From positions 1 to 31,025 of the IMG/VR virus record IMGVR_UViG_3300032284_001473: a stretch of DNA of 31,025 nt. One strand, written 5' to 3'. Positions 7,700 to 31,025 of the stretch are shown in pieces. A program made the translations under genes and the position numbers. Numbering within the stretch: the stretch's first letter is position 1; the number at the start of each line of letters is the position of its first letter. The notes beneath the pieces are model-generated. The model was not told the DNA's origin. It saw nothing but the letters and a program-made list of their open reading frames with translations, and ran no database searches. This stretch comes from a virus.

Positions 7700-8118
7700 A
7701 GTTCTGGATACCGCTGAACGCCATTCATAACTGTTGTATGATCGACCTTCATAATTTTGCCAATACGGTTGAATGAAAAATTAAGTTCTTTGTTCGCCCG
7801 GTAATATAATTCAAACCGACATGCCACAATGTTGGGCTTGCGTCCCCTTTTGATTATATCAGACGGGTCTAATTCATGTTTATCCGCAACTTCCCGTACC
7901 AGCCGCATAAATGACGGCGTGGCATGGTCAAGCATGATCAAAACACCCGCTTCAGGGGCAACCTGAATAATGGTCTTTTCTTTCTTAGGTTCCGGTATTT
8001 CAGGATATTCCGTTGGAGGAATAACGCCAGTGGGTCCGCCTAACCCGTATAATCTTCGCTTTACAGCCGCATAACGCGCCTTTAATTGCGAAACATAGCG
8101 GGAATCTCCGTCCACCAT
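7681..8118 (-). CDS. DnaA domain IV-like DNA-binding protein
   Basis: A 145-residue protein whose C-terminal two thirds match bacterial DnaA domain IV, the DnaA-box-binding helix-turn-helix: VREVADKHELDPSDII, then RGRKPNIVACRFELYY, and the signature DHTTV at residues 126-130. The AAA+ ATPase and domain I are absent; the first 60 residues are a basic helix and a proline-rich linker. It could bind DnaA boxes on phage or host DNA and recruit or block initiation; this is inference. It overlaps the RusA gene by 37 bases and the phosphoesterase gene tail to tail. The start follows GGAGG. Confidence 0.88.
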   Translation of the reverse strand: MVDGDSRYVSQLKARYAAVKRRLYGLGGPTGVIPPTEYPEIPEPKKEKTIIQVAPEAGVLIMLDHATPSFMRLVREVADKHELDPSDIIKRGRKPNIVACRFELYYRANKELNFSFNRIGKIMKVDHTTVMNGVQRYPELQSTSI

Positions 8119-8471
8119 TCTGCCTCCTGCTGATCTAACGGATATACTTTAACCACCATTGGCGGTCCAAAATCAACCCATTCGGCTACAATAGCCCTAC
8201 AAAAATTATCATCGGTAACAATACCTGTCCGTACCAGCAGGTCACTGGTAGCTTTAAGAAGGTTATCTAAATCCCTTCTTCTTTTATCAGGTTTTTTAGC
8301 TACCACCTGTAATATATAATCCCTTGGTACGGATTCTTTAGTTTGAGTCTTAATCATCCAAGATGATTCTTCTAACCATTGTTTATATATATTAGATTTA
8401 TATATACGCCCCCGGCCTGACCCCCAAATGGCGTTAGCTGACGGTGCTAATGGAAGTTCCAGCCGGATCAC
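8082..8471 (-). CDS. rusA: RusA family Holliday junction resolvase
   Basis: A 129-residue protein of normal RusA length. RusA cuts Holliday junctions symmetrically as a dimer. The conserved core is visible: RRRDLDNLLKATSDLL at 64-79, with the acidic D67 and D69, and GIVTDDN at 83-89 with the further aspartates. The start is a GTG at 8471-8469; the frame overlaps the gene upstream by 38 bases. Together with ERF and Gp157-like proteins it forms the recombination set. Confidence 0.9.
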   Translation of the reverse strand: MIRLELPLAPSANAIWGSGRGRIYKSNIYKQWLEESSWMIKTQTKESVPRDYILQVVAKKPDKRRRDLDNLLKATSDLLVRTGIVTDDNFCRAIVAEWVDFGPPMVVKVYPLDQQEAEWWTEIPAMFRN

Positions 8472-9297: not shown

Positions 9298-9966
9298 ATG
9301 ACAAAGATGATCGCACAAGCACTTAGCAATGTTATGGCTAAAGTGTCCTATATCCAAAAAACGGGACACAATAAGTTCCATGGTTACAAATACGTAAGCG
9401 AATCAGACCTGTTGGAAAAGCTACGTCCAGCAATGACGGAAGAAGGGTTGGTTCTTATTCCTTCCTATCATTCGTCCCATTCAGACCCCGCAAGCGGTAA
9501 CATAGATGTTATTATTGCCTATACGCTTATTCATAAAAGCGGGGAGGTTTGGCCTGAAAAGATTATGGCGATTGGTTGCGGCAATGACCGTGCCAAGAAT
9601 GGATTGATTGGCGACAAGGGCGTTTATAAGGCCATTACAGGGGCTAATAAATACCTATTGTTTAAGTTGTTCCAAATTGAAACGGGTGACGATCCTGAAC
9701 GCGATGAAACGCCGGTAGCAGCGGCCCCAAAAGTTGCTGATTTGCCATTTTCTAATGGCACGGCAGAACAAGTTGATGCTTATATGTCATTGGCAATACC
9801 TGCGATACCTACTGCTAAAACTTCGGCGGAACTGAAAAAATGGTGGAAAGACGAAGCAGAAAATCGGTACAAATATGGAATTACTGAACATACTGATGAA
9901 TACAAAACGCTTTTAAGAAAAATTATGGAACATGAAGCTACCCTTAGCAAAGGCGGCAAATCATGA
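9298..9966 (+). CDS. erf: ERF family single-strand annealing protein
   Basis: A 222-residue recombinase of the ERF superfamily, which anneals complementary single strands in phage recombination and genome circularisation. The core shows KYVSESDLLEKLRPAMTEEG (about 32-51), a beta-rich middle, and the diagnostic DKGVYKAITGANKYLLFKLF followed by GDDPE. A variable C-terminal region follows. The start has TAGGAG upstream, eight bases after the Gp157-like stop, and its stop overlaps the next gene as ATGA. No paired exonuclease gene is obvious nearby. Confidence 0.93.
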   Translation: MTKMIAQALSNVMAKVSYIQKTGHNKFHGYKYVSESDLLEKLRPAMTEEGLVLIPSYHSSHSDPASGNIDVIIAYTLIHKSGEVWPEKIMAIGCGNDRAKNGLIGDKGVYKAITGANKYLLFKLFQIETGDDPERDETPVAAAPKVADLPFSNGTAEQVDAYMSLAIPAIPTAKTSAELKKWWKDEAENRYKYGITEHTDEYKTLLRKIMEHEATLSKGGKS

Positions 9967-14008: not shown

Positions 14009-17000
14009 TTACCCTCCAAATACTAAGGCAGGATGTTTAAGCATCTGTTGATAAACAGCCGTTACATCACCATCAATTTTTTTGACACCGCCAAGGGTAT
14101 TTTTATTATGGTCAACCTTTGTAAATACAAATTTGTCACCGGGCTGAATGCCTTTGTCCAATAATGCTTTATATAATTGGGTATTTGGTTCAGCATCAGA
14201 AGAATAACCAGCCATCTTAGGAGATGATTGATTAGGCATTATATAAACCGTTTGTGCAGTAAGTTTATCTGCATTAGGCAATGGCATTCCTTTGAAGTTC
14301 CCCAAAACTGATTGGGCAGACTTTTCAAACAATTCAGGTTTATTTAATTGTCTCCAATTTTGTGCAAAAGCAGCGTAATTAGCCCCATTTGGATTTTGTT
14401 GTTTAAACGCCGTCCAATCTTTCCAAAGTGAATTTTGTGAAAGGGTTGCCGCAAGTTGTGTTTCCGCCAAACTTAACGATGCTGGATTTATTTGATCAAT
14501 ATTTGGCGTTGCTTTTTGTTCGGTCGTGTTAAATTCTGATTGCGTTGGTCGTGCAAAGTTGGCCGATACCTGTGCAACGGCATTAGACACAGAAGTTTTT
14601 ATTGCAATTTGACCAGCAGCAATATCAAGTTTGTTACTTAAAATTTGATTGGCAATATCATCAAAACCAAGACCCTTGGCTTGATTAGCCAATTCAATTC
14701 TATTTGTAGACAAACCACCGCCTTCAATAAAATGCGCCGCAGAACTAAATTTAAGAAGCGCAGGTATGGCATCTTTTGTCTTAGCAATAGATTGCTGCAT
14801 TTCTGCTTCTTGTTCAGCGCTTGCCTTTTGCGAAGATGCCAAATTGGGATCTGGCGCAGTTCTAACAACGCCTGATGGCAATGATTCTGTCGGATGTCCG
14901 CCAGTTAAAGGATAACCAATATTTGGAATGTTGGTTTTTACAACACCCGTATCATTATCAACCAATCCTGTATCTTGTTCTGACAAAGGTGGTGGTGGCG
15001 GGTTATTAAATGCCGGTCCACCCGGCTGCAACCGAACTGTATTTCCAGCAGGTGTTTGGAAAGTTTGCCCCAACGCATCTTGAGCCAGTTTTAACATTTC
15101 ATTTGCGCGTGCATATTCTACCTTTTGCTGTTCAGGATTTTTGGTCATCGTTGCAGCATTTTTGCGAATAGCGTCAGATTGTGCCTTTAAACTTTCGTAA
15201 CGATCTTGTTGGGCTTTAATTGATGCTTGCAATATATCGTTAGTGGCCGTTGGTTGACCAGTTACGGCTGGCGCTTGTGTCATTGTTGCAGGTGCCGGTG
15301 GTGCTGTTGTTGTAGCCGCCGCCTGTGCAGGTTGAGCAGCTGTTGTTGCCGCTGCTGTAGCAGCCGGTGTTTGACCAGCTGATTGAATAACATTTTTTGC
15401 CGTATTAACTGCCGTTGATGCAGCACCCTGCCCCGATGTTGCTGCGGAAGACATAGTTGCAGATTCACCCACATCGGTTGGTGTTAATCCATAACCCCGC
15501 ATAATTTTAATTTTTTCTGCTTGGAATTGTGCCGGTGAAAGCACCGTATTGTCAGGTGCCAAATATTGCAGTTTAGTACCGCCCGCACCGTCATCAACAT
15601 ATTGCGCGGTATATTGCCCTATGTCATTTTTGTATAGATTGAAGCCAAATTGCTTCGCTTCTAATCCATATTTTTGACCTTCTAGTCCTACGCGCTGACC
15701 TTCATAACCAACGCGTTGTTGTTCTTGTTGAAATTTAGCTTGTGCAAGCGCATTTTCACGGGCTAGCTGCATTTGATTTTGATAATTGCCAATAGCCGCA
15801 ACGCCGCCTTCGCCAATGGCTGATCCAAAGTATGGTGACTTAGAAGCCATCATGCCTAAAAACCCTGCCAGCAAAGACTGTCTGGTTGCAGGATCAAGAT
15901 TGCGGCCCAATACATTTTCTAACAAAGTGCGTTGATCCGCACCAGCCACGCCTGACTTGTCAGCCTGACCTGCCGCAGCAACACCCTGTTTAGGGCCAAA
16001 AGATGTAAATGTTGGGGCTAATGCCGCCCTCATTTCTGGCGTAAATCCGTTTTTCTGAATATCTGCTTCTAAATCATTACCTGTACGTGCTTTATAATCA
16101 CGTTTTGCCAATGTTAATGTAGCAGCATCTTGATATTCAGGAGTCATAGGTGCGCCACCTGTGACGTCATCCCATGTTCCCTTTATAAATTGTCCTGCGC
16201 CAGCCGCCGTAGATGTTCCACCTTCCCCAACGCGGTTAGGGTGTCCTTTTGTTGGATCAAAAGTTTCACCACCATTCAAAATATTATATTTTCCGCCACT
16301 TTCGCCATGATAAATTGTATGAACGATCATTTGTTGGATCGGATTCATATCATCAACGCTTTGAGGTTGAATTTTAAATTGCGGTTGATCAGGCGTTTGA
16401 TCTGGCGTTGTATCAGAAGTTTGTGGTGGTGTTGTACCTACAACATTGCCTTCACTTCCATCGTGATGTTCACGATACCCAACTAACCCGCCCCGGGCAA
16501 AACCCGGTTCATTACCCGTGGCAAACCCATAGCTTCCACCTGTACCAGATAAAGTATTGCCAAGGTTATTAAACCCACTAGATATATTTCCTAATCCGCC
16601 CTGCAAACTTCCGCTTCCCGGCCGCGTCTTTAATAATTGTTGCAAAAAATTGTCCGCAGTTGTGTCTTGTTCAACTTTAGGCGGTTGCGGAATAGTGTTT
16701 TTCCCAACAGGAATTTGCGTTGATGGTATATAACCACGAACATTAGCATATGGCGTTCTATTGGTTTGACCATATGGAATCATACCGATCCCGGGATTAG
16801 CTTTGCCATACAATTGCTGAATAAGATCAGTTAATTCAGAACTATCAACGCTTCCACCGGTTGGATATGCTTGCCTTTCCATACTTGGAACAACACCACC
16901 GCCCATAGATGCTAAACCACCCAAAGCAAAATGTCCGCGTTTTGCAGCATCTTCCGTAGCAATATCATAATTAACCGCACGAATACCGTCTTGCGTTCTG

Positions 17001-18349
17001 CTTACGGCTTCTGGTTTATGATGTTCTGTTTCTGCGGCGTTAAGACCAATTTGGGTCGTTGGACTGCCTTTATAATTAAACTTATAAATGTTTTGGCCGT
17101 CAAACGTCTTACCAACTGGCTCCATATTGTCTTTCATTCTTGGGTCGGAAATAAGTGACAATGCACCTAAACCGCCAAAGATCTGGGAAGCCACATTTGG
17201 ACCCGGCTGTGTCGCCGTAGAAGTACCACCCGTACCAGCGCCAATACCTTCAATGATATTAGCCAGATATTGCGTAGACTGAAATGGATACGCTTGTCCC
17301 TGTTGATATAGACCCTGCATCGCAGAATCCAACGCCTGCTGATAAGCCTGCTGTTGCGCGCCAGCAGCCAATTGTGCCTGTGCGCCTTGCAATGCGGCAG
17401 TTTGAGCCTGTGTACCCAGACCGGCAAGTGCCTGTCCGCCGCCAAGACCCATGCCATATAATCCTTGGCCTAGCGCCGCCTGCTGTTGTGCAGTAGACAA
17501 GCCCTGCCCATACAATTGTTGACCCAAAGCAGCCTGTTGTTGCGCTGCACCTAATTGTTGGCCGTACCCTTGCTGACCAATAGCACCCAACTGCCCTGCC
17601 GCTGCCGCTTGCGCTGCACGGTTAGCTTGCTGTGCTGCAAGATTTACACCTTGTTGCTGACCAAACATCTGTTGGGCATTGGTATAACCGCCTTGCAATA
17701 GATTGCTTAAAGTTTGACCAGATGCCAAATTCTGTTGGTTAGCTAATTCAGCTTGTGCAATACCTGCACGATCACCGCCAAATGCACCCGCACTAATAGC
17801 ATTGCCTTGCAGTGCCGCACGTTGCTGTCCCTGCTGATTCTGTAACTGCGCCATTGTCGCGTTTACGACATTGTTCATATATGGCGACATATACTGCTGA
17901 ACGGCTTCAGGCGAATATTGTTGAGGTGTAACCGCGCCTGCCGAACCAAGGGAAAGGTTGGTAGCCAAATTTTGATATGGTTGCGCCATATTTAAGGCGT
18001 TTTGATAACCATATTGTGCCTGCTGTTGCAGCGGCATAGCGGCATTGATACCGCCCTGAATTGATCCCGTAGCTGCATTATAATACGGCATAGCCGCATT
18101 CATGCCGCCTTGTACGTTTTGCATACCCTGATAAATAGCAGGAAGTGCCGTTCCAACTGACGCATTAACATTGCTAATGCCTGCTTGCTGGGTAGGGGAC
18201 AGCGGTGCAACCATTTCTCCGCCATACGGCGTATAAGGTGTTGCTGCGGCTTGTTTAGCCAGATCAACTACACCCATATAATTTTGCATCATCTGCGGCG
18301 TAGGAGACCATGATGATGTTGATTGCGTTGATCCTGACCCACCACTCAT
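14009..18349 (-). CDS. Giant multidomain virion protein with S74-like and transglycosylase-like domains (1446 residues)
   Basis: The ATG at 18349 follows GGAGA; a TTG at 18361 is less likely. Layout: residues 1-370 are Gln/Ala/Gly-rich helical repeats (AAQQQAALGQ-type units); 400-465 is an S74 chaperone-like segment with SDPRMKDNMEPVGKT, IYKFNYKG and PEAV; then linkers rich in Gly with FARGGLVG near 620; about 665-790 is a lysozyme/transglycosylase-like domain with HGESGGKYNILNGGETFDP and STAAGAGQF, similar to the lambda R (GH104) fold; 790-1446 is helical, with Ala/Thr/Pro-rich linkers. The likely role is a virion protein that locally opens peptidoglycan during ejection. An S74 segment in the middle, not at the C-terminus, is odd. 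Confidence 0.82.
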   Translation of the reverse strand: MSGGSGSTQSTSSWSPTPQMMQNYMGVVDLAKQAAATPYTPYGGEMVAPLSPTQQAGISNVNASVGTALPAIYQGMQNVQGGMNAAMPYYNAATGSIQGGINAAMPLQQQAQYGYQNALNMAQPYQNLATNLSLGSAGAVTPQQYSPEAVQQYMSPYMNNVVNATMAQLQNQQGQQRAALQGNAISAGAFGGDRAGIAQAELANQQNLASGQTLSNLLQGGYTNAQQMFGQQQGVNLAAQQANRAAQAAAAGQLGAIGQQGYGQQLGAAQQQAALGQQLYGQGLSTAQQQAALGQGLYGMGLGGGQALAGLGTQAQTAALQGAQAQLAAGAQQQAYQQALDSAMQGLYQQGQAYPFQSTQYLANIIEGIGAGTGGTSTATQPGPNVASQIFGGLGALSLISDPRMKDNMEPVGKTFDGQNIYKFNYKGSPTTQIGLNAAETEHHKPEAVSRTQDGIRAVNYDIATEDAAKRGHFALGGLASMGGGVVPSMERQAYPTGGSVDSSELTDLIQQLYGKANPGIGMIPYGQTNRTPYANVRGYIPSTQIPVGKNTIPQPPKVEQDTTADNFLQQLLKTRPGSGSLQGGLGNISSGFNNLGNTLSGTGGSYGFATGNEPGFARGGLVGYREHHDGSEGNVVGTTPPQTSDTTPDQTPDQPQFKIQPQSVDDMNPIQQMIVHTIYHGESGGKYNILNGGETFDPTKGHPNRVGEGGTSTAAGAGQFIKGTWDDVTGGAPMTPEYQDAATLTLAKRDYKARTGNDLEADIQKNGFTPEMRAALAPTFTSFGPKQGVAAAGQADKSGVAGADQRTLLENVLGRNLDPATRQSLLAGFLGMMASKSPYFGSAIGEGGVAAIGNYQNQMQLARENALAQAKFQQEQQRVGYEGQRVGLEGQKYGLEAKQFGFNLYKNDIGQYTAQYVDDGAGGTKLQYLAPDNTVLSPAQFQAEKIKIMRGYGLTPTDVGESATMSSAATSGQGAASTAVNTAKNVIQSAGQTPAATAAATTAAQPAQAAATTTAPPAPATMTQAPAVTGQPTATNDILQASIKAQQDRYESLKAQSDAIRKNAATMTKNPEQQKVEYARANEMLKLAQDALGQTFQTPAGNTVRLQPGGPAFNNPPPPPLSEQDTGLVDNDTGVVKTNIPNIGYPLTGGHPTESLPSGVVRTAPDPNLASSQKASAEQEAEMQQSIAKTKDAIPALLKFSSAAHFIEGGGLSTNRIELANQAKGLGFDDIANQILSNKLDIAAGQIAIKTSVSNAVAQVSANFARPTQSEFNTTEQKATPNIDQINPASLSLAETQLAATLSQNSLWKDWTAFKQQNPNGANYAAFAQNWRQLNKPELFEKSAQSVLGNFKGMPLPNADKLTAQTVYIMPNQSSPKMAGYSSDAEPNTQLYKALLDKGIQPGDKFVFTKVDHNKNTLGGVKKIDGDVTAVYQQMLKHPALVFGG

Positions 18350-18370
18350 CGCGGTCTCCAAAAATAAAAG

Positions 18371-19415: not shown

Positions 19416-19756
19416 GAATATCCTACAGAAATAATTGAACCGGTTCCGGGGACAAATACCAATCCAGTCGCAAACGGGATCTGTATTTGATAAATGCCTA
19501 ACGTATTTGGAACCGCATAAATACGATTACCGGAAGTAGCCGATGTGCTATTGGTGTCATACAAATAGCCTTGCGTAGAACCCGCTACTATAACACTGAC
19601 GGTAGAAAGCCATCCGCCAGATGATTTAATCACCTTGCTGGCTGATATTTCTTTAGTAGAATATGATCCATCATGGTTGGACAATAGCGAAACATAGGCA
19701 TTGATTGCCTGTACGCCATTTTTCTGTGTGGTTAAAATATCGTCTAAACTAGCCAC
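19412..19756 (-). CDS. Small virion protein, 114 residues, GTG start
   Basis: The start is a GTG at 19756-19754, one base overlapping the stop of the previous gene; a longer frame to 19807 is read only through that gene. The protein begins [20 protein letters not shown], a typical head of small podovirus structural proteins placed after the gp10-like gene, then a beta-rich Ser/Thr part. It probably is a small capsid or tail accessory protein. The ribosome site is weak, so coupling to the upstream gene is likely. Confidence 0.75.
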
Positions 19757-21999
19757 TAGAACCGCCCATCTGGTTGGAAACGATAACGAACGCCGCCAAG
19801 ACGCCAAAACGTCCCTGTATCATTGGATGACAAGGAAAATGACATAAAACGCGCCCTGATTCGGCATGAAATGTATTCCGTTGATTGCGTCATTGGAAAT
19901 GTCACAGATGTTACCTGCCCAGATGGTGAACCTGAATAGTAACTAGTTGATGGCGAAGTAGCGGTATCTGTGGCGTAATTAGTATAATTAATGGTCAAAT
20001 ATACGGTAGCATTTTGGTTGCCGCTGTATGTTCCCCATTTCATATCGGGCCAAATTTGGTCAATAAATACTAAATTGTCCGCTTCATTTAATTGGAAATA
20101 ACCAGTTGAGAAAGACGACTGCATGCCGGTTGTTTGACCATTATAAACCGCGTCATTGCCTACTTCATGTTGGTAAAGCCAATTATCCGAACCAGCGCCA
20201 ATAGGTGGGCCAAGAACCGACTGATCAATCCATGCCGTGCGGCCAAGCGTGCCATAGTCCCATTGGTCCAATGTCACGTTGTATTTTACATAGCTATCGT
20301 TTTCGGTCGACGATGCCGATGGGTAATACCACGTGATTTCATTAAACTGGCTGTTTACGCCGCAGCATACTTTATATAAATAAGACGTATTAAGGTTTTG
20401 AAATACAACGTCAAAAATGGGGCAGTTAATTGCTTGTGGGCCGGATCCCATCATGACAAAGAACTGTTTTTGGCTCATCCAATAGATGTTGTTGCCCAAT
20501 TGACCTACGCAATGACGGCTAATAGCCCCACAGTTAGACCCAATTTTGTTAAATCCATAAACCAACGGCAAGCCAACATACTGCATTGCCCAAAGGTCTA
20601 AGTCTGTCCATAACAGACCTTGTTGCGGACCCTGAAAAGCAGCAACAATTTTTGATCCAGTAGGTATACGGAATGAACCTGCTTGATTGGTTGCTGTAGC
20701 ATTCCATGTTGTAAAATCACCAACATCGCACCACCGTACCAGCAAGGGATCGGCCTGCAAAGTGAACGATGACCCGTAAGCTACAATTTGACGTTCTGGC
20801 ATAGCGACAAAAATACCGCTGTTTACCAATGGTGCATTTCCACCAAGGTATTGGGCATTTTGTAACTGACCATTTGGGTCATAATAGTAAATTGCGCCGC
20901 CTGCTGGGCAAGCTACCAAGTACGAACCAAAATTGTCTAAGGTCCAATCCGTTGCGGTAATAGGTGTTCCGGGCTGCGTTATAGGAACGCCAACACCAAA
21001 ACCACCTACGCCGTATCCGCCGACACCAAAACCCGTTCCTAAAGCCTGCGGTCCAACGCCAATATAATAAGTAAATTGAACATTCCCGCTATTGATAGCG
21101 GTCGGCCCAGCAGTAGACGAAGCTAATGTAGTTGACGAAAACGTAAACGAACTGGCAGTTGGTGTGCTAACAACCGTATAAAGACCGGACAGTGTCACAC
21201 CGCCAATCGTTATTGGAACGCCAATATCAAATGATGAACCAGCACTGTAACCGTGATTGTCAAAATAACCCGTAATAAGGGACGAATTATTTGTTGTTTT
21301 AAACGCGTAAACGCCGACTAATTTAGCCGTACCCGTACCAGCACCAACGCCTGTAGCATTAAATATAACGCCAACCGTATTGGCTGATGCGCCAATAAGC
21401 GTGTAATCTGTCGTTCCTACCGTTACAATTTGATACGTATTACCGACGACAAATGAACCAGCCGTGGTATTTGTTGATGTGTTAGCCGAACTTGTAGCTG
21501 TTGTTGAGGCAAAAATTGTATACGTTGTTGATGCCACAGTTTGTAGCGCATACGGCCCGTAAAGCGTTAATCCGCCAACAGCAACTGGGGTGACAAAGTT
21601 TACATAATCAAATGTAGTCAAATTTGACGCATTGGAATCAGTAATTGTAACGACATTAGATCCAGACGTTGTTACAAATACTGGTGGCGTATTGGTTGTG
21701 GTAATTTCTGGCGTAATATCTATCAAATTACCGCTGGTAAGGACATTAAGCGATGATTCTGCGCCAATGCCCAAATGGTTAACGGCATTTAAATCCGACC
21801 AACCTTTTAGCGCCCTAATTTTTGACGAAATAGCAGAACGGTAATAGTTAACCCAACCGCCTAATTTTTGGGCAAGCCCTAGCCCATTGCGTTCTTGCAA
21901 AAACCGAATCAGCTGTGACGATGAATACGCCGCTTCATTTAATGAAGGTGTATTGTTGGTTTCAACGCCGGGTTTTAAGCGAATGGTTGCATGTGGCAT
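19756..21999 (-). CDS. P22 gp10-like packaged-DNA stabilisation or tail hub protein (747 residues)
   Basis: The N-terminus (IRLKPGVETNNTPSLNEAAY, then a QLIRFLQERNGLGLAQKLGG helix) and the C-terminal beta-rich half (QIVAYGSSFTLQADPLLVRW, LLWTDLDLWAMQYVG, LGNNIYWMSQKQFFVM, YRFQPDGRF) match a family related to P22 gp10, the plug below the portal. It is longer than gp10 (747 against about 470 residues) because residues of about 95-350 carry inserted Thr/Ser/Gly-rich beta units. One unit contains GTTDYTLIGASANTVGVIF, a repeat type common in marine phages. Family naming is by recall; a tail tubular protein B-like fold is the alternative. Confidence 0.72.
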   Translation of the reverse strand: MPHATIRLKPGVETNNTPSLNEAAYSSSQLIRFLQERNGLGLAQKLGGWVNYYRSAISSKIRALKGWSDLNAVNHLGIGAESSLNVLTSGNLIDITPEITTTNTPPVFVTTSGSNVVTITDSNASNLTTFDYVNFVTPVAVGGLTLYGPYALQTVASTTYTIFASTTATSSANTSTNTTAGSFVVGNTYQIVTVGTTDYTLIGASANTVGVIFNATGVGAGTGTAKLVGVYAFKTTNNSSLITGYFDNHGYSAGSSFDIGVPITIGGVTLSGLYTVVSTPTASSFTFSSTTLASSTAGPTAINSGNVQFTYYIGVGPQALGTGFGVGGYGVGGFGVGVPITQPGTPITATDWTLDNFGSYLVACPAGGAIYYYDPNGQLQNAQYLGGNAPLVNSGIFVAMPERQIVAYGSSFTLQADPLLVRWCDVGDFTTWNATATNQAGSFRIPTGSKIVAAFQGPQQGLLWTDLDLWAMQYVGLPLVYGFNKIGSNCGAISRHCVGQLGNNIYWMSQKQFFVMMGSGPQAINCPIFDVVFQNLNTSYLYKVCCGVNSQFNEITWYYPSASSTENDSYVKYNVTLDQWDYGTLGRTAWIDQSVLGPPIGAGSDNWLYQHEVGNDAVYNGQTTGMQSSFSTGYFQLNEADNLVFIDQIWPDMKWGTYSGNQNATVYLTINYTNYATDTATSPSTSYYSGSPSGQVTSVTFPMTQSTEYISCRIRARFMSFSLSSNDTGTFWRLGGVRYRFQPDGRF

Positions 22000-23237: not shown

Positions 23238-23433
23238 TCTTATCACCACAGAATTGTTGCCACTTATCATCGTGGGCAAGTATTTGATTCGCCGTTTTGG
23301 CGCTTATTTTGTCAGATTTATTGACATAAATAGGTTTAACCCAGCTGCAAGATGTATCTACAATCTTGGTTTCTGGCTTAGGCATACAAGCCGCTACCGA
23401 CAATACCGCCAATAAAGCAATAATGCGTTTCAT
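23227..23433 (-). CDS. Outer-membrane spanin (Rz1-like lipoprotein)
   Basis: A 68-residue lipoprotein. The signal MKRIIALLAVLSVAAC ends at Cys16 with a lipobox (VAAC). The mature part contains TSCSWVKPIYVNKSDKIS and ends in FCGDKNGG, with a pair of further cysteines, a form common in small o-spanins. With the i-spanin it would fuse outer and inner membranes at lysis. The start overlaps the i-spanin stop as ATGA; GGAG precedes it. Confidence 0.82.
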   Translation of the reverse strand: MKRIIALLAVLSVAACMPKPETKIVDTSCSWVKPIYVNKSDKISAKTANQILAHDDKWQQFCGDKNGG

Positions 23434-23687
23434 GGCTGGCTCCACTTTTTCTTTAGCGTTTCAGCGGATGCGTTATCTTTATAGACTTTTTGTTCAATGT
23501 TAGCAGATTTGCTAACTACTTCTTGTTCGTGCTGTATGGCTATAACTTCTTCTTTGGCTTTTTCATCAGCCGCGCCAATAGCTTTTTCATTGGATGCCCA
23601 ATAAGCGTATCCGCCAATAAGCATCGCACCTAGTGCTACAATTATTAAGATATTCCGTACCAGCGGATTAAGCAGTAGGGCCAACAT
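23430..23687 (-). CDS. Inner-membrane spanin (Rz-like)
   Basis: An 85-residue protein with one N-terminal membrane segment (residues of about 11-30) and then a periplasmic coiled coil (ASNEKAIGAADEKAKEEVIA, EQEVVSKSANIEQK). This is the i-spanin form. It overlaps the o-spanin by ATGA and the holin candidate by 20 bases. The family is very variable, so the call rests on topology and gene order. Confidence 0.8.
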   Translation of the reverse strand: MLALLLNPLVRNILIIVALGAMLIGGYAYWASNEKAIGAADEKAKEEVIAIQHEQEVVSKSANIEQKVYKDNASAETLKKKWSQP

Positions 23688-24399: not shown

Positions 24400-25503
24400 T
24401 TAACCGACAATGCCACCGCGTTTATAAACGGTAAATCCGGGTATTCCTGCTGCCGCTGCGCCTTGCAATGCACTTTCTTCAGCAGGGTTAGCCCGAACAG
24501 AATTAAGATTTGCTATGTATCCGGGGCCAACATCGGTTGGTAATACTGGCGCAGGTGTTCCTGCTGCTGCCGTAACAGGTGTTAACGCCATAGCTTTTTG
24601 ATAAGCTGTTGCATCTGCGCCTGTTGCACCACCGGCAATTGTGGTCGATAATTTATTAGGATCACTTGCTAATGAAGGATTGGAAGCAATTTGCTGCGCC
24701 CAATACGAATCAGTTGCAGGGTTATAAGTCCGGCCAAAATCTGTTTGATAAATATTATTCAATAAAGATGTTGTTGAATTAGCCGGTGCCGGTGTTGGCG
24801 CAGGTGTTGGGGTAGGAACTGGCGTAGGAACTGGCGTAGGTGTAGGTGCCGGTGTTGGTGCAGGCGAAGGTGTTGGAACGGGCGTTGGCGCAGGTGGAGT
24901 AACCATGCCGGAATTCAAGCTGCCGCTAAATCCATAACTAGCTGGATTAAAGCCTCCACCGCCACCCATGCCGTAGCCGCCCATACCATATCCGCCCATA
25001 GGCATACCATAACCGCCCATGCCATAACCGCCACCGTAGCCACCCATGCCATAGCCGCCGTAGCCGCCCATTTGACCCATAAATGGATTTTGCATTGCAC
25101 CTAAACCACCCATGTATGACATTGGATAGCCTTGGGAATACGCCGACATACCAAGACCGGTCATAAATGGGTTTTGTGCGCCATAACCCATCATGGACTG
25201 TTGGTTATATGCCTGTGGTTGATATTGTTGCTGGCCGTATTGCCCCATATACGGGGAAAATTGCGGTTGTTGTGCAAGGCCACCCATCCCCCCTATATTT
25301 GTTTGGGGTCCGTAACTGACAGTCGGCATTGGTTCATTATTATAAAATGGCGCCTGCTGCTGTTGATATGCCTGTTGTGCAGGATACTGTTGGTACTGCG
25401 GCTGATATTGCGGCTGCTGTGGGTACTGCTGCTGACCGTAGCCGCCAAACATATTGCCTGTTTGCTGACCATATGCAGCATTAGTTCCAGCACCACCACC
25501 CAT
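24400..25503 (-). CDS. Low-complexity Gln/Gly/Tyr-rich and Pro-Thr-rich virion protein (367 residues)
   Basis: Residues 1-130 are rich in Gln, Tyr and Pro; 130-195 is a Gly-Tyr-Met repeat; about 200-245 is a Pro-Thr-Ala/Val repeat ([10 protein letters not shown] type). Residues of about 247-305 look like a DUF4214-type unit ([20 protein letters not shown]). The C-terminus ends YKRGGIVG, sharing a RGG patch with other virion proteins here. Low-complexity parts may act as a flexible tether or as sticky surface. AAGGA precedes the ATG. Function is unknown. Confidence 0.72.
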
Positions 25504-26045: not shown

Positions 26046-26542
26046 CAAAGTCCCAAAATCATAGCATAAGCAATGGATTGCGCCTGCGTAACACCACCGC
26101 CTGTGCTTGAAGAACTAGCCAAAGCCACATTGGTGCCGTCGCAGTATACAATAATGCTATATGTTCTTGGAATAACCAATGTCGTTCCAGCCGCAACATT
26201 GCTGCCGTTATTGGAACCCATTGTAACCGTATAAACACCGATTGTATTATTCGTAACGACCCACATGCCAGCTACGTTCTGCGGCAATAAAACCGTCTGA
26301 TTCGCGGCCAACGCGCCGGTCAATAAGAACCGCATACACTGCGATGTGGAACCCGATGCCGTTGAACTAGGCGCGGCAATGTTGGTATTTGTTGGCGATC
26401 CGCCCGTGTTTACAGAAACACTGGTTGTGCTACCAAATACAAGGTCAAGAATGCTTGAATTATAGTTAAGCGGCTGATCCCATGTAGGGGATGTGCTATT
26501 ATACGCTGGTTCGTTTAGGGCAAGGTTGGTGGTAATACTCAT
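26045..26542 (-). CDS. Tail-fibre-like virion protein, 165 residues
   Basis: The N-terminus (LNEPAYNSTSPTWDQPLNYN, ILDLVFG) is like the heads of tail-fibre or appendage proteins that begin a repeat of short beta units; the rest is Thr/Ser/Gly-rich beta structure (AANQTVLLPQNVAGMWVVTN). It has no enzyme motif. It overlaps the gene upstream by ATGA. It probably is a small fibre or adhesin component. Confidence 0.75.
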   Translation of the reverse strand: MSITTNLALNEPAYNSTSPTWDQPLNYNSSILDLVFGSTTSVSVNTGGSPTNTNIAAPSSTASGSTSQCMRFLLTGALAANQTVLLPQNVAGMWVVTNNTIGVYTVTMGSNNGSNVAAGTTLVIPRTYSIIVYCDGTNVALASSSSTGGGVTQAQSIAYAMILGL

Positions 26543-26775
26543 TTGTCAGCCTTCCCATCCAGCTTGTCGTAAATACGTTGGAACATGGACTCAATGTGAT
26601 CCATACGCTTGTCCAAATCTTCTTTAAGGACGTATTCTTTTGGCAATGTGGCTTCTAATTTATTAATATCCCGCTGTAGTTCTTTAACAGCACCCCATAA
26701 TTCCCGCATTAGCCATCCGGCTACGGTTAGAATAGCACCTAATCCAAGATTTATGAGGTTCTGAAATTCAACCAT
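26539..26775 (-). CDS. Small membrane-anchored coiled-coil protein, 78 residues
   Basis: A hydrophobic N-terminal helix (residues of about 6-25) is followed by a coiled coil (ELQRDINKLEATLPKEYVLK, DKRMDHIESMFQRIYDKL). The layout resembles small holin-like or i-spanin-like proteins, but the true lysis block lies further downstream. A perfect TATAAT element lies about 30 bases upstream. Confidence 0.72.
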   Translation of the reverse strand: MVEFQNLINLGLGAILTVAGWLMRELWGAVKELQRDINKLEATLPKEYVLKEDLDKRMDHIESMFQRIYDKLDGKADK

Positions 26776-26802: not shown

Positions 26803-26808
26803 ATTATA
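26803..26808 (-). promoter_or_regulatory. Possible late-operon internal promoter (-10 element)
   Basis: On the minus strand the gap between the adhesin stop (26835) and the next start (26775) contains a perfect TATAAT. The best -35-like TTGGAA is 20 bases upstream, which is too far for a standard promoter. The gap is AT-rich. Confidence 0.3.
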
Positions 26809-26834
26809 CTACACCATAACCAAAAATATTCCAA

Positions 26835-28544
26835 TTATGGGAACCCTACGCAAGTTGAGGGAAATAATCGTTTACATCCGGGCCAAACAATGCGGACTGC
26901 GCCATTGCCCCCAGCATTTAAATTTCCACAAGAAGCACGGGAATTTCGGGGACCGCCGCCACCATACGTTCCACCATATCCACCTACGGTGTTTCCAAGA
27001 CTGCTTCCTTGAGTTCCCCCAGATCCACCATATCCACCTGTTGAACTTGTTCCACCGCCACAGCCAGATGTTCCTTGCCCATATAAACCTACGCCGCCGC
27101 CGCCCCCGTTAAAGGAGCCACCACCGCCACCGCCGCCGCCAGAACCTGCTGTTGCTGCACATAAACAACAATTTCCCCCGCCATTTCCGCCGTTACCCGA
27201 ATATCCCCCGGCACCGCCAGCCCCATGTCTACTGTTACCGCCCTTACTACCCGCATTACCGCCATTGCCCCCACCATCGCCAACATGGGTGCCACCAGTT
27301 GTTCCTACACCAGTAGGAGATTTGCCCGCCACTAAAGTTATGCTGCAAAAATATGATGAGGTAGGTTTACTGCTTGAAACCGTGCAAGAATTATTTGGAA
27401 AAGTATTATTACTACCTTTGCCAACTACAACTGTATAAGAATTTCCCGGAGTGACAGTAATATTGTTTTTATAACCAAGACCACCACCCCCACCACTACT
27501 ACCCGCATAACAAGTGCTTCCGCCGCCAATTGCAACTACTGAAACCTTCGTTACCGTGGACGGGGCTACCCATGAATATGTTCCGGGAACAATGAAAACG
27601 GCAGACCCATATTCCCCAGAACCAGAAACGCATGTGGATGGAAACGATCTTGTATTTCCGGGCCAAATAATACGCACCGCGCCACTTCCGCCTATTGTGG
27701 CATTGTAAGAACTTGCAGGAACATATCTTCCATGACCGCCACCGCCAAATTGTCCCGCCGTTCCACCGCCTAATGGACACGTTCCAGTAACACCGTTTCC
27801 TCCACCAGACCCTCCACCACCGCTGCCATTAGGATAAGTTCCTCCGGCACCGTTAGAACCTTGCCCATAAACGCCTACACCCCCACCGTTTCCATATAAA
27901 TTGCCGCCGCCACCGCCGCCGCCAGAACCAGACAATCCATTGCACGTTGATGATCTTGCGTTTCCCCCGTTTCCGCTATACCCGCCAGCGCCACCTCCGC
28001 CGCCGGGCTGAAAATTAGAACTATTTACACTGCCACTTCCACCATTCCCCCCCCCACAACCAGTATGGGTTCCGCCACAAACTGTAAAAGTTCCGCCCTT
28101 TCCAGAAACTGTTGATAAATTAACAAAATAACTATTTCCGCCACAAGTAGCAGCCCATGTATTAATTCCCCCAGCGCCAACTACAACCGTATATGAATTA
28201 CCGGGTGTTACGGAATAATTATTTTTGTAACCAAGGCCACCACCTCCGCCACCGTAGCCGGGATAAGATCCGCTGCAATTAATCCCCGTTCCGCCAGCCC
28301 CGCCCCCTATAGCAACAACAGAAACATTATTAACGCAAGAAGGGGCAACCCAAGTGTAAGTTCCCGGAGTTGAATAAAGTTGTCCACCGGGTGGAATATT
28401 TCCGGCAATAGGCCAAACACCTTGTTTTACATATTGGGTCATTTGGTCAACTGTCCAAACGCCGGGTGCCGCCCCATTTGAATATGGACCAGTAGGTGTA
28501 GTAACGTTTTTGTTAATAAAACCGCCAAGGTATCTGGTAGACAA
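26835..28544 (-). CDS. Glycine-rich adhesin with two tandem modules (569 residues)
   Basis: The start is a TTG at 28544 with a perfect AAGGAGG seven bases upstream. After an N-terminal part (residues 1-58), two related modules follow: about 59-310 and 318-569. Each has PGTYTWVAPS or PGTYSWVAPS, VSVVAIGGG, GLGYKNN, VTPGNSYTVVVG, a long Gly-Gly-rich core, and a closing AVRIIWPG or AVRIVWPG then FPSTCV. Gly-rich cores of this type form polyglycine-II helix bundles in T-even-like adhesin tips (S16 gp38). The likely role is host recognition. It may be a receptor-binding tip; the FPST ending is a familiar close of marine phage fibres. Cysteine is unusually frequent. Confidence 0.85.
   Translation of the reverse strand: MSTRYLGGFINKNVTTPTGPYSNGAAPGVWTVDQMTQYVKQGVWPIAGNIPPGGQLYSTPGTYTWVAPSCVNNVSVVAIGGGAGGTGINCSGSYPGYGGGGGGLGYKNNYSVTPGNSYTVVVGAGGINTWAATCGGNSYFVNLSTVSGKGGTFTVCGGTHTGCGGGNGGSGSVNSSNFQPGGGGGAGGYSGNGGNARSSTCNGLSGSGGGGGGGNLYGNGGGVGVYGQGSNGAGGTYPNGSGGGGSGGGNGVTGTCPLGGGTAGQFGGGGHGRYVPASSYNATIGGSGAVRIIWPGNTRSFPSTCVSGSGEYGSAVFIVPGTYSWVAPSTVTKVSVVAIGGGSTCYAGSSGGGGGLGYKNNITVTPGNSYTVVVGKGSNNTFPNNSCTVSSSKPTSSYFCSITLVAGKSPTGVGTTGGTHVGDGGGNGGNAGSKGGNSRHGAGGAGGYSGNGGNGGGNCCLCAATAGSGGGGGGGGSFNGGGGGVGLYGQGTSGCGGGTSSTGGYGGSGGTQGSSLGNTVGGYGGTYGGGGPRNSRASCGNLNAGGNGAVRIVWPGCKRLFPSTCVGFP
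26845..26903 (-). repeat. Adhesin 3'-end repeat, copy A
   Basis: This 59-base stretch at the end of the 569-residue adhesin gene aligns without gaps to 29897-29955 at the end of the next adhesin gene. By hand count about 48 of 59 bases match. A weaker third copy is at 27625-27683, the end of the first module. It encodes the AVRI(V/I)WPG to FPSTCV ending. Confidence 0.75.
27625..27683 (-). repeat. Adhesin module-end repeat, copy B (internal)
   Basis: This is the end of module 1 of the 569-residue adhesin, in the same frame and orientation as the copies at 26845 and 29897, and shares GGGCCA and the GCGCC end. It marks the module boundary. Confidence 0.6.
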
Positions 28545-28546
28545 AA

Positions 28547-28777
28547 TTAAACCTCCTTGGATATAATTGCCGTAGAAGTATTCCTATCAATGGACATTAC
28601 ACCATAGCACACAATATTCCAATCCCCACCATCCCGTTCATCCGTAACGGGGGTTGTAATGTTTAAATGCTTAAACAGGTATTCTTTACCATTTTCAAAT
28701 ACCCGCCAAACATGATCTTCTGTCCCACGGCCTTGTTGCCCACGGGATTTGTTAAACCTTATGGCATATTTGTTCAT
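28547..28777 (-). CDS. Conserved small phage protein, 76 residues
   Basis: The protein has EDHVWRVFENGKEYLFKHLN and DWNIVCYGVMSIDR, a pattern I recall from small conserved proteins of aquatic phages placed near structural genes. It is probably a small beta-rich domain. The ATG overlaps the oxygenase stop as ATGA, and its final codons contain the ribosome site of the adhesin gene, so the three are translated together. Function unknown. Confidence 0.78.
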   Translation of the reverse strand: MNKYAIRFNKSRGQQGRGTEDHVWRVFENGKEYLFKHLNITTPVTDERDGGDWNIVCYGVMSIDRNTSTAIISKEV

Positions 28778-29436
28778 ATCACTTCAGCCGCCGGAATGTT
28801 GTCTGTTTGACGAACACCAAGGTTAAAGTGAATGAATTGGATTGGTTTTTTAGCGGCATGACGGGTAAATGAATGTGCTAACCAAGCATTTGTAAATATC
28901 ATTAAACCCGGTTCAGGAACAAAATTAATCATTCCACTAGCCGCCGTTGCCTCACCACCGTTTTTTTCCGGCAAACTGGTCATTACCTTACCAGCCCGTG
29001 GATCATGGAATACTACACGGGAGCCGTCTTCGGGGGTTTGAGTAAAATAAAACCCAACAATTTGTGATCCAAAACCGTGGACGTGTTGTTCCATAGCGGA
29101 GTGCTTGTAGTGTTGCTGGCACCACATTTCCGAAAAAAACGTATGGAATCCCGCCATGTTATATCCTTGGCCGTCAAGAATATTCCATGCCGTTTGACCG
29201 ACAAATGCAGCAAAATCTTGCATCCGTGGATCGTCGTAAAGATTGCCCGTCATGTATACTGGATAAATTTCATCCAGTTTTTTGTCTTTTTTAACTTTTT
29301 CTACGTTTTCATCACAAACTTGACGTACAACTTTAAGAAATTCGGGTTTTTTGACGGTATAAATCAGTGTTGGAAAATAATTAAACGTACCTAATTGATT
29401 TTCCTGTTCTTCTACTGCTTCCGCAAGATTGTTCAT
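28774..29436 (-). CDS. 2-oxoglutarate/Fe(II)-dependent oxygenase
   Basis: The start at 29436 is chosen for the GGGGG upstream; a longer frame to 29481 overlaps the next gene. The 220-residue protein has QHVHGFGSQIVGFYF at about 117-131, with H118 and H120, VVFHDPRAG at 141-149, and LMIFTNAWLAHSF at 178-190 with H188. This is the layout of phage 2OG-Fe(II) oxygenases related to prolyl 4-hydroxylases and PF13759. The first metal motif is H-x-H, not the usual H-x-D. The target is unknown; it lies between two fibre-type genes, so a virion protein substrate is possible. Confidence 0.85.
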   Translation of the reverse strand: MNNLAEAVEEQENQLGTFNYFPTLIYTVKKPEFLKVVRQVCDENVEKVKKDKKLDEIYPVYMTGNLYDDPRMQDFAAFVGQTAWNILDGQGYNMAGFHTFFSEMWCQQHYKHSAMEQHVHGFGSQIVGFYFTQTPEDGSRVVFHDPRAGKVMTSLPEKNGGEATAASGMINFVPEPGLMIFTNAWLAHSFTRHAAKKPIQFIHFNLGVRQTDNIPAAEVI

Positions 29437-29450
29437 ATTTCCCCCGTTAA

Positions 29451-29867
29451 TTACGTTGTTGGCGGAGTAAATTCCACCCATGAAAGTGTTGGCTCATCCC
29501 AACGGTATTCTTTACCGTCAGTTGGCTTAGGCTTTGGCGCAGAATATGTCAATGTAGCTTCATCTAATGTCCATGAAGGAAATGGCGGATTTGCTTTGTA
29601 TTGTGCAATCTTTTCTGATTTTTCTTGTTCAGTCATTGGACGTAAAGACCAAACATCTTTTACTATTTTATCAAACCATTGGTAGCTAACTTCAGCTACT
29701 TCAAATGGTTCCGGTTGCACATTTTGGGGCACCCGTTCAAATACAGCAAATTCAGGCGGCAAATTGTTTACGTCAATATGCGGAAATGCTTGACGAAAAT
29801 TGTCACCAAAAATTGGGTGTTCAAAAGGCTGACCGTTGCGGATTTGAATGTATAATTCTATTGGCAT
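29451..29867 (-). CDS. Conserved fibre-associated phage protein, 138 residues
   Basis: Begins MPIELYIQIRNGQPFEHPIF, then NLPPEFAVFERVPQN, and a helix (MTEQEKSEKIAQYKA). The C-terminus has KEYRWDEPTLSWVEF. I recall this family next to tail-fibre genes of marine phages, where it may help fibre assembly. AGGAG precedes the ATG. The role as a fibre chaperone is inference. Confidence 0.78.
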   Translation of the reverse strand: MPIELYIQIRNGQPFEHPIFGDNFRQAFPHIDVNNLPPEFAVFERVPQNVQPEPFEVAEVSYQWFDKIVKDVWSLRPMTEQEKSEKIAQYKANPPFPSWTLDEATLTYSAPKPKPTDGKEYRWDEPTLSWVEFTPPTT

Positions 29868-29886
29868 TTCTATTTACTCCTATGAT

Positions 29887-31025
29887 TTATGGACTTCCTA
29901 CACAAGTTGAAGGGAATTGTCTTGTATTGCCGGGCCAGACAATGCGGACTGCGCCACAAATACCAATTCCGCCTACTCCATAGCCACAACAAGAATATGG
30001 GCTTCCGCCGCCAGCGCCACCTCCGTAAAATCCACCATTTCCCGCTTTTCCCCTTTGTGAACCGCATGGTTTTCCATCTCCACCTGCCGTTCCAGAAGAA
30101 CCTCCGGCACCTCCTACCCCCGTGCTACTACCATAAGTACCGCCAGATCCATTTGAACCACTTCCAAATAAACCAACGCCACCACCACCTCCGCCGCCTA
30201 AAGCAGTATTTGTAGTACCTGAACCGCCACCGCCACCTCCGCCGCTTCCCGAAACTCCGCTATGAGCCGCCAAGGTATTGCAAGGTCCGCCTTGTGCACC
30301 TCCACCTCCCCTGCCACCAGAACCGGAATACCCCCCAGCACCACCGCCGCCGCTAGAACCCGTGCTATAACTAGCGCACCAACGCCCTCCCTTGCCGCCA
30401 GATCCGCCAGTACCGCTAACAACAGTACCACCACATCCCCCTGTTCCAGCCCCATACCCTCCTCCTCCGGAACCTGCGGCTACAACTGAAGTGGAACAAA
30501 AATAGGCTTTTGAAGAATTATAAGAACTTGTGTTTTGTGAAGGTACATTTACAGCATATGAATTTCCCGGAATCACTGTAATGTTGTTAACGTATGCTAA
30601 AGCTCCACCACCTCCTGCAATACCGGGATACGAACCACTACTCCCGTTGCCCCCCTTGCCTCCAGCACCAACAGTTACAACCGAAACTGAAGTAACTCCA
30701 CAAGGGGCAACCCAAGTATATGTTCCGGCTGCTGTATAAGATTGAGAACCAGCAAGAACTGCCGTTATAGAATTGCTTGAACTACTTGCTGGACCCGTGC
30801 CACCCGGAGTTACGCCGTATGCTTTAAATGTATAAGAAGTTCCACTAGTTAATCCAGAAACAACAACGGGGGACGATGATCCCGTATTTTGATAACAACC
30901 CGGCGTAGAAATAACTTTATAAGTTAAGGAACCCGTGCCAACGCAACTTGGTGCAGAAAATGTTACCGATGCACAAGCCGTTGTTCCAGCCGTAGCTGTT
31001 CCAATTGTTGGCGCTCCGGGACTAC
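29887..31025 (-). CDS. FN3-domain plus glycine-rich adhesin (partial, 5' end off the window)
   Basis: The frame runs open through the right edge; its stop is at 29887. The visible 379 codons begin with an FN3-type beta domain (SPGAPTIGTATAG, SSPVVVSGLTSGTSYTFKAY, GPASSSSNSI). Then a Gly-rich module like those in the 569-residue adhesin follows: AAGTYTWVAPCGVTSVSVVT, VNNITVIPGNSYAV, a Gly-Gly core, and AVRIVWPGNTRQFPSTCV near the end. An internal ATG at 30576 is not a real start since the homology begins far upstream. The likely role is host binding, with FN3 as a spacer or sugar-binding unit. The N-terminus is unknown. Confidence 0.85.
   Translation of the reverse strand, partial: SPGAPTIGTATAGTTACASVTFSAPSCVGTGSLTYKVISTPGCYQNTGSSSPVVVSGLTSGTSYTFKAYGVTPGGTGPASSSSNSITAVLAGSQSYTAAGTYTWVAPCGVTSVSVVTVGAGGKGGNGSSGSYPGIAGGGGALAYVNNITVIPGNSYAVNVPSQNTSSYNSSKAYFCSTSVVAAGSGGGGYGAGTGGCGGTVVSGTGGSGGKGGRWCASYSTGSSGGGGAGGYSGSGGRGGGGAQGGPCNTLAAHSGVSGSGGGGGGGSGTTNTALGGGGGGGVGLFGSGSNGSGGTYGSSTGVGGAGGSSGTAGGDGKPCGSQRGKAGNGGFYGGGAGGGSPYSCCGYGVGGIGICGAVRIVWPGNTRQFPSTCVGSP
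29897..29955 (-). repeat. Adhesin 3'-end repeat, copy C
   Basis: The end of the partial adhesin gene, matching 26845-26903 at about 48 of 59 bases without gaps. Both run in the same direction about 3 kb apart, so recombination between them would remove or swap the oxygenase and two small genes. Confidence 0.75.

Follow-up and report, generated by a model that had tools for sequence, protein, structure and literature searches.

Putative Pam3-like tail-fibre tip genes with glycine-rich modules in an uncultured phage may evolve by gain, loss and re-joining of parts

Which bacteria a phage can infect is decided by the tips of its tail fibres. Two neighbouring genes, here named A and B, carry glycine-rich modules with repeated ends in a viral DNA record, and the question was what these genes encode and how their parts were put together. 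The record (IMG/VR IMGVR_UViG_3300032284_001473) most likely comes from an uncultured freshwater tailed phage. The window, that is, the whole stretch of DNA analysed, was the entire record of 31,025 nt. Features of the locus are listed in Table 1. Gene A starts with a TTG codon, and the sequence AAGGAGG is found at 28552–28558. Gene B runs off the end of the contig, and its start is outside the record, which covers no further.

Table 1. Positions, strands and characteristics of the features at the A/B locus of the window
Feature	Position	Strand	Remarks
Gene A	26835..28544	-	569 aa; ORF; two glycine-rich modules behind an N-terminal anchor
N-terminal anchor of A (STRYLGGF...GVWTVDQ...GVWP)	28395..28544	-	Also on genes with other C-termini
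Module A1	27630..28367	-	246 aa; fold match of this module in the A model to Pam3 gp24 7YPX, Z 16.5
Module A2	26850..27587	-	246 aa; homologous to A1, z 17.6 against glycine-held shuffles
Gene B	29887..31023	-	FN3 and one glycine-rich module; 5' end cut by contig end
FN3 domain of B	30754..31023	-	Pfam fn3 E 5e-4 (below cut-off); fold match Z 12-13, residues 1-90
Module B1	29902..30729	-	276 aa; matches Pam3 gp24 7YPX_A
End block of A2 (GAVRIVWPGCKRLFPSTCVGFP)	26835..26904	-	Repeat family, codon comparison
End block of A1, internal to gene A (GAVRIIWPGNTRSFPSTCV)	27615..27684	-	Repeat family, codon comparison
End block of B1 (GAVRIVWPGNTRQFPSTCVGSP)	29887..29956	-	Repeat family, codon comparison
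Companion gene after B, 138 aa (MPIELYIQIRNGQPFEHP...)	29451..29867	-	Belongs to no known family; candidate for fibre assembly
2OG-Fe(II) oxygenase gene, between B and A	28774..29481	-	PF13759 E 5e-8; phrog_81
Conserved 76-aa gene upstream of A	28547..28777	-	In relatives without A, 26539-26775 comes directly after
Degraded copy of 3' end of gene 28547-28777	26806..26834	-	Just after A stop; likely insertion scar
Gene on far side of A	26539..26775	-	About 94% DNA identity to relatives without A

The first-pass annotation, made from the letters of the window, held that the two genes share one module type. This was borne out: A contains two modules, and B contains an FN3 domain followed by one. 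The three modules shared 53–58% amino-acid identity in pairwise comparisons over 243–251 aligned residues. Smith–Waterman scores of whole modules were 15–18 z units above those of shuffles that held the glycine positions, and the scores of the module middle alone were 3.8–5.9 above them. As the modules, including their middles, outscored shuffles with every glycine in place, their similarity is not only a matter of composition, an explanation that the annotation had allowed for outside the module ends. Gene A matched PF21722 (Gly_rich_2) in two stretches (E 1e-16, 61.7 bits against a curated cut-off of 24.3) and phrog_4474 (E 3e-84). These are the sequence families of the modules, and PHROG 4474 has no assigned function. 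B1 had no PF21722 listing of its own in the Pfam search; it is still homologous to A1 and A2. The fn3 match in B scored 20.6, below the Pfam cut-off of 25, and the FN3 fold was supported by structure comparison. A tblastn search of a phage collection returned no match for A, which low-complexity filtering may hide, and none for the 748-aa protein. PDB sequences searched with the module profile gave unrelated glycine-rich stretches only.

AlphaFold 2 models of B and A were built on alignments of 32 and 20 sequences, respectively. The model of B had a pLDDT of 81 and a pTM of 0.75. Its residues 90–364 matched the Pam3 tail fibre gp24 (PDB 7YPX_A) with Z 17.3 and rmsd 2.4 over 183 residues at 26% identity, and the residues before them matched FN3 domains. 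The model of A was weak (pLDDT 70); its first module still had Pam3 gp24 as its top match. After it came the Bxb1 tail tip at Z 12.1, and then glycine-rich domains from ALK and LTK at Z 9. The Pam3 fibre has an N-terminal helical shaft through which it trimerises and docks to the baseplate; in the window, the anchor of A was modeled with low confidence, with one short helix at 31–39, and the start of B is beyond the contig end. The TNF-like β-sandwich with a glycine-rich extension, which is the feature of Pam3 gp24, was present in the models of both genes, supporting the adhesin-like fold that had been suggested for the modules.

In Pam3, the glycine-rich domain of gp24 carries a distal tip that is variable and is the proposed receptor binder, and a chaperone gene accompanies gp24; gp24 was detected in the virion, whereas the chaperone gp25 was not (PMC9608196). 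The locus in the window shares with Pam3 gp24/gp25 (PDB 7YPX; PMC9608196) the predicted TNF-like and glycine-rich fold, a small adjoining companion gene, and conserved glycine motifs with variable segments. Pam3 differs in having one module only, carried by a long helical shaft. In the family studied here, short anchors, leaders or FN3 domains precede one or two modules, one to three genes stand in tandem, and the companion matches no known chaperone in sequence. The Bxb1 tail tip protein (PDB 9D93 chain Q), a mycobacteriophage tail tip, is more distant, with fold matches of Z 12.1–12.3. In adhesins of the S16/T2 gp38 type (PDB 6F45), too, hypervariable segments are set between glycine-rich motifs. 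Pam3 gp24 partly resembles gp38, and gp38 has a β-helix domain where gp24 has the TNF-like one (PMC9608196). The first-pass annotation had pointed to S16 gp38 for comparison, but the match obtained was Pam3 gp24. The gp38 structure 6F45 was outside the chains listed in the fold comparison, so that this comparison does not speak against gp38. The predicted fold suggests that A and B function as adhesins or receptor-binding proteins, and they are most likely tail-fibre tip proteins. The structural kind, a Pam3 gp24-like tip, is known; the modular arrangement is what makes the locus notable.

The companion gene after B was 77–81% identical in eight relatives whose B genes vary strongly. A companion-type gene followed at least 42 of 97 such module genes under a strict pattern, and more were seen by eye. 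B has a conserved companion, whereas A has none directly after it. The companion protein did not match known chaperones in searches of PDB sequences and Pfam. By analogy with Pam3, it probably helps B to fold in a chaperone role. The 2OG-Fe(II) oxygenase gene stays with the adhesin genes in relatives.

In related genomes, the site of B lies beside the companion and 2OG-Fe(II) oxygenase genes. At this site, single-module genes were found in L007, L166, L172, L174, L165 and L170, two-module genes in L018 and L171, two tandem genes in L169, and FN3 with one module in L176. Three tandem module genes were found elsewhere, in L219 and L221. Module number thus varied among relatives, with one or two modules per gene and one to three tandem genes per locus; a constant number had been named as a result that would count against modularity. 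The N-termini were swapped among anchor, leader and FN3 types across relatives. B itself was a mosaic at the DNA level. Its FN3 domain and first strands resembled L219–L221 (71–73%), its end block and companion resembled L165–L174, and its middle had no DNA resemblance among the fetched loci.

Gene A sits between the conserved 76-aa gene and the gene on its far side. In 13 distinct relatives (upstream gene at least 84%), homologues of these two genes were 1–2 nt apart, and the site was empty. In nine more distant loci, the same slot held a gene with an A-type anchor and a different C-terminal part. The degraded copy just after the stop of A was identical to L099 at 25 of 29 positions and to the window's own copy at about 23 of 29 by eye; none of 2,000 shuffles reached the score of the window's own match. 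DNA identity to relatives without A was about 94% over 287 nt ending at A and 70–82% beyond. The simplest reading of these sequences is that gene A was inserted at a recombination junction and left a remnant of the old gene end. Because direct repeats flank A, an older A could also have been lost in the relatives by deletion between them, which we do not favor as the simplest account. In L172, L007, L174 and L166, the slot of A was occupied by a gene of 680–700 aa that has the A anchor but a different C-terminal part, with TYIFLAIA at its end; a second small gene, encoding about 165 aa, comes next.

The three end blocks were found where the first-pass annotation had placed them and formed one repeat family. 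The gene-end pair (A2 and B1) was 79% identical over 70 nt, in agreement with the 48 of 59 bases quoted earlier. The peptide encoded by all three, GAVRI[IV]WPG..R.FPST, is found at the end of similar genes in 59 loci. The DNA-level match was therefore real, and it had been taken as a sign of duplication or exchange between the two genes. The 79% identity, the longest exact shared run of 18 nt (the between-genome 95th percentile was 16), and the end-block excess within genomes that is seen family-wide would fit a recent duplication, or gene conversion, between the two genes. However, identical amino acids in the A2 and B1 end blocks shared a codon in 57% of cases (0.57), and this agreement was matched or beaten by the end blocks of several other phages, ranking 5 and 13 of 75 when the end blocks from every phage in the comparison were included. 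Elsewhere in the three modules, four-fold degenerate sites agreed at 34–37%, near saturation. A1 also shared more with a module of another phage, module 1 of L010, than with A2: 34 private columns against 14 (p 0.006, which is optimistic because L010 had been selected as the top one among about 100). As the A2 and B1 codons matched no better than those of unrelated phages and the rest was saturated, nothing here points to recent duplication or exchange, and the end blocks match in DNA mainly because their peptide is conserved across phages. We consider recent copying between A and B improbable in this genome. The origin of A1 and A2 by duplication inside gene A is unlikely in our judgment. A1 was 64% identical to module 1 of L010 and 53% to A2, and it grouped with modules of L010 and L009 in a free quick tree (SH-aLRT 97). 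On the other hand, the deep module tree was poorly resolved, and the AU test did not reject a tree that held A1 and A2 together (p 0.94); this constrained tree had a better score than the free one, indicating that the quick search was not optimal.

Conservation of the peptide accounts fully for the end-block match in the window, and the same peptide ends unrelated genes in the 59 loci. It could be that selection on the peptide is the only cause throughout the family and that exchange plays no part, but we regard this as rather doubtful in view of a comparison of 18 genomes with at least two gene-terminal modules. In these, synonymous-codon identity of the end blocks exceeded that of the rest of the module by 0.13 on average. 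The excess was 0.03 for pairs from different genomes, and 5 of 20,000 random sets reached the within-genome 0.13. Most of the effect of codon usage cancels when the value for the remaining module is subtracted, but the loci had been collected because they resemble A, the within-genome pairs were not independent, and the control pairs were drawn at random. The excess was clearest in L041, L059, L169, L050 and L046, and L017, L011 and L012 showed none in the same test. These results are suggestive of end-block homogenisation in the family. Module exchange, the mechanism offered in the first-pass annotation, is thus plausible for the family, where recombination may pass through the conserved ends, and is unsupported for this genome. 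A 91% match over 69 nt between L217/L218 and 29801–30250 was rejected as end-block evidence; the longer alignment starts at the companion gene. In a tentative and less probable extension, the 3' end block would act as a DNA-level homology arm, lengthened by the adjoining companion gene. Through it, adhesin genes in tandem would exchange their ends or make them alike, and the middle, where the receptor is contacted, would remain hypervariable. Hypervariable segments between conserved motifs could also come from a dedicated system, that is, a diversity-generating retroelement or an invertase. We consider this very improbable, as no reverse transcriptase (PF00078) or serine recombinase family match was found in the record, which is a fragment.

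The phage does encode ERF and RusA, as had been noted, and both were confirmed by Pfam profile matches (ERF at 9298–9966, PF04404, E 4e-19; RusA at 8082–8471, PF05866, E 5e-9). They could take part in recombination; nothing was found that ties either to the A/B locus. Other parts of the window are described here for completeness. A 1450-aa protein is encoded at 14009–18361, and its residues 284–467 match the DNA ejection protein family phrog_4287. A 367-aa protein at 24400–25503 has repeats rich in glycine, glutamine, tyrosine and methionine and had no DNA relatives among the fetched loci. Four contigs (L085–L088) were 92–99% identical to the window in the structural protein at 19756–21999. 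They stop 165–310 nt away on the upstream side of the endolysin gene, close to where the variable region begins (23430–23600 in the window). Their ends may be assembly breaks at strain variation or a genome end.

Taken as a whole, A and B are best explained as Pam3-like receptor-binding tips that evolve by gain, loss and re-joining of parts, and we put the probability of this reading at about 75%. Like Pam3 gp24, each module would form a TNF-like β-sandwich in which glycine-rich motifs link one strand to the next. These motifs, which are conserved, would support the variable segments in contact with the host. The tip would be attached to the particle through a short N-terminus of the anchor, leader or FN3 type, and the small companion gene would help the tip to fold. 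The locus would evolve as its parts are gained, lost and re-joined; close relatives have nothing at the site of A, which would have entered there by insertion.

The report on metaviromic islands of marine phages (PMC3909814) likewise describes phages that are much alike except in their host-recognition genes, which vary; the present analysis describes a specific module family and an insertion site. In many uncultured freshwater phages, a parts list of anchor, FN3, glycine-rich tip and companion is combined in varying number and order. The empty site with its scar marks a place where one tip gene appears to have entered. If end-block homogenisation is true, it would provide a simple and testable route for the exchange of tips in nature.
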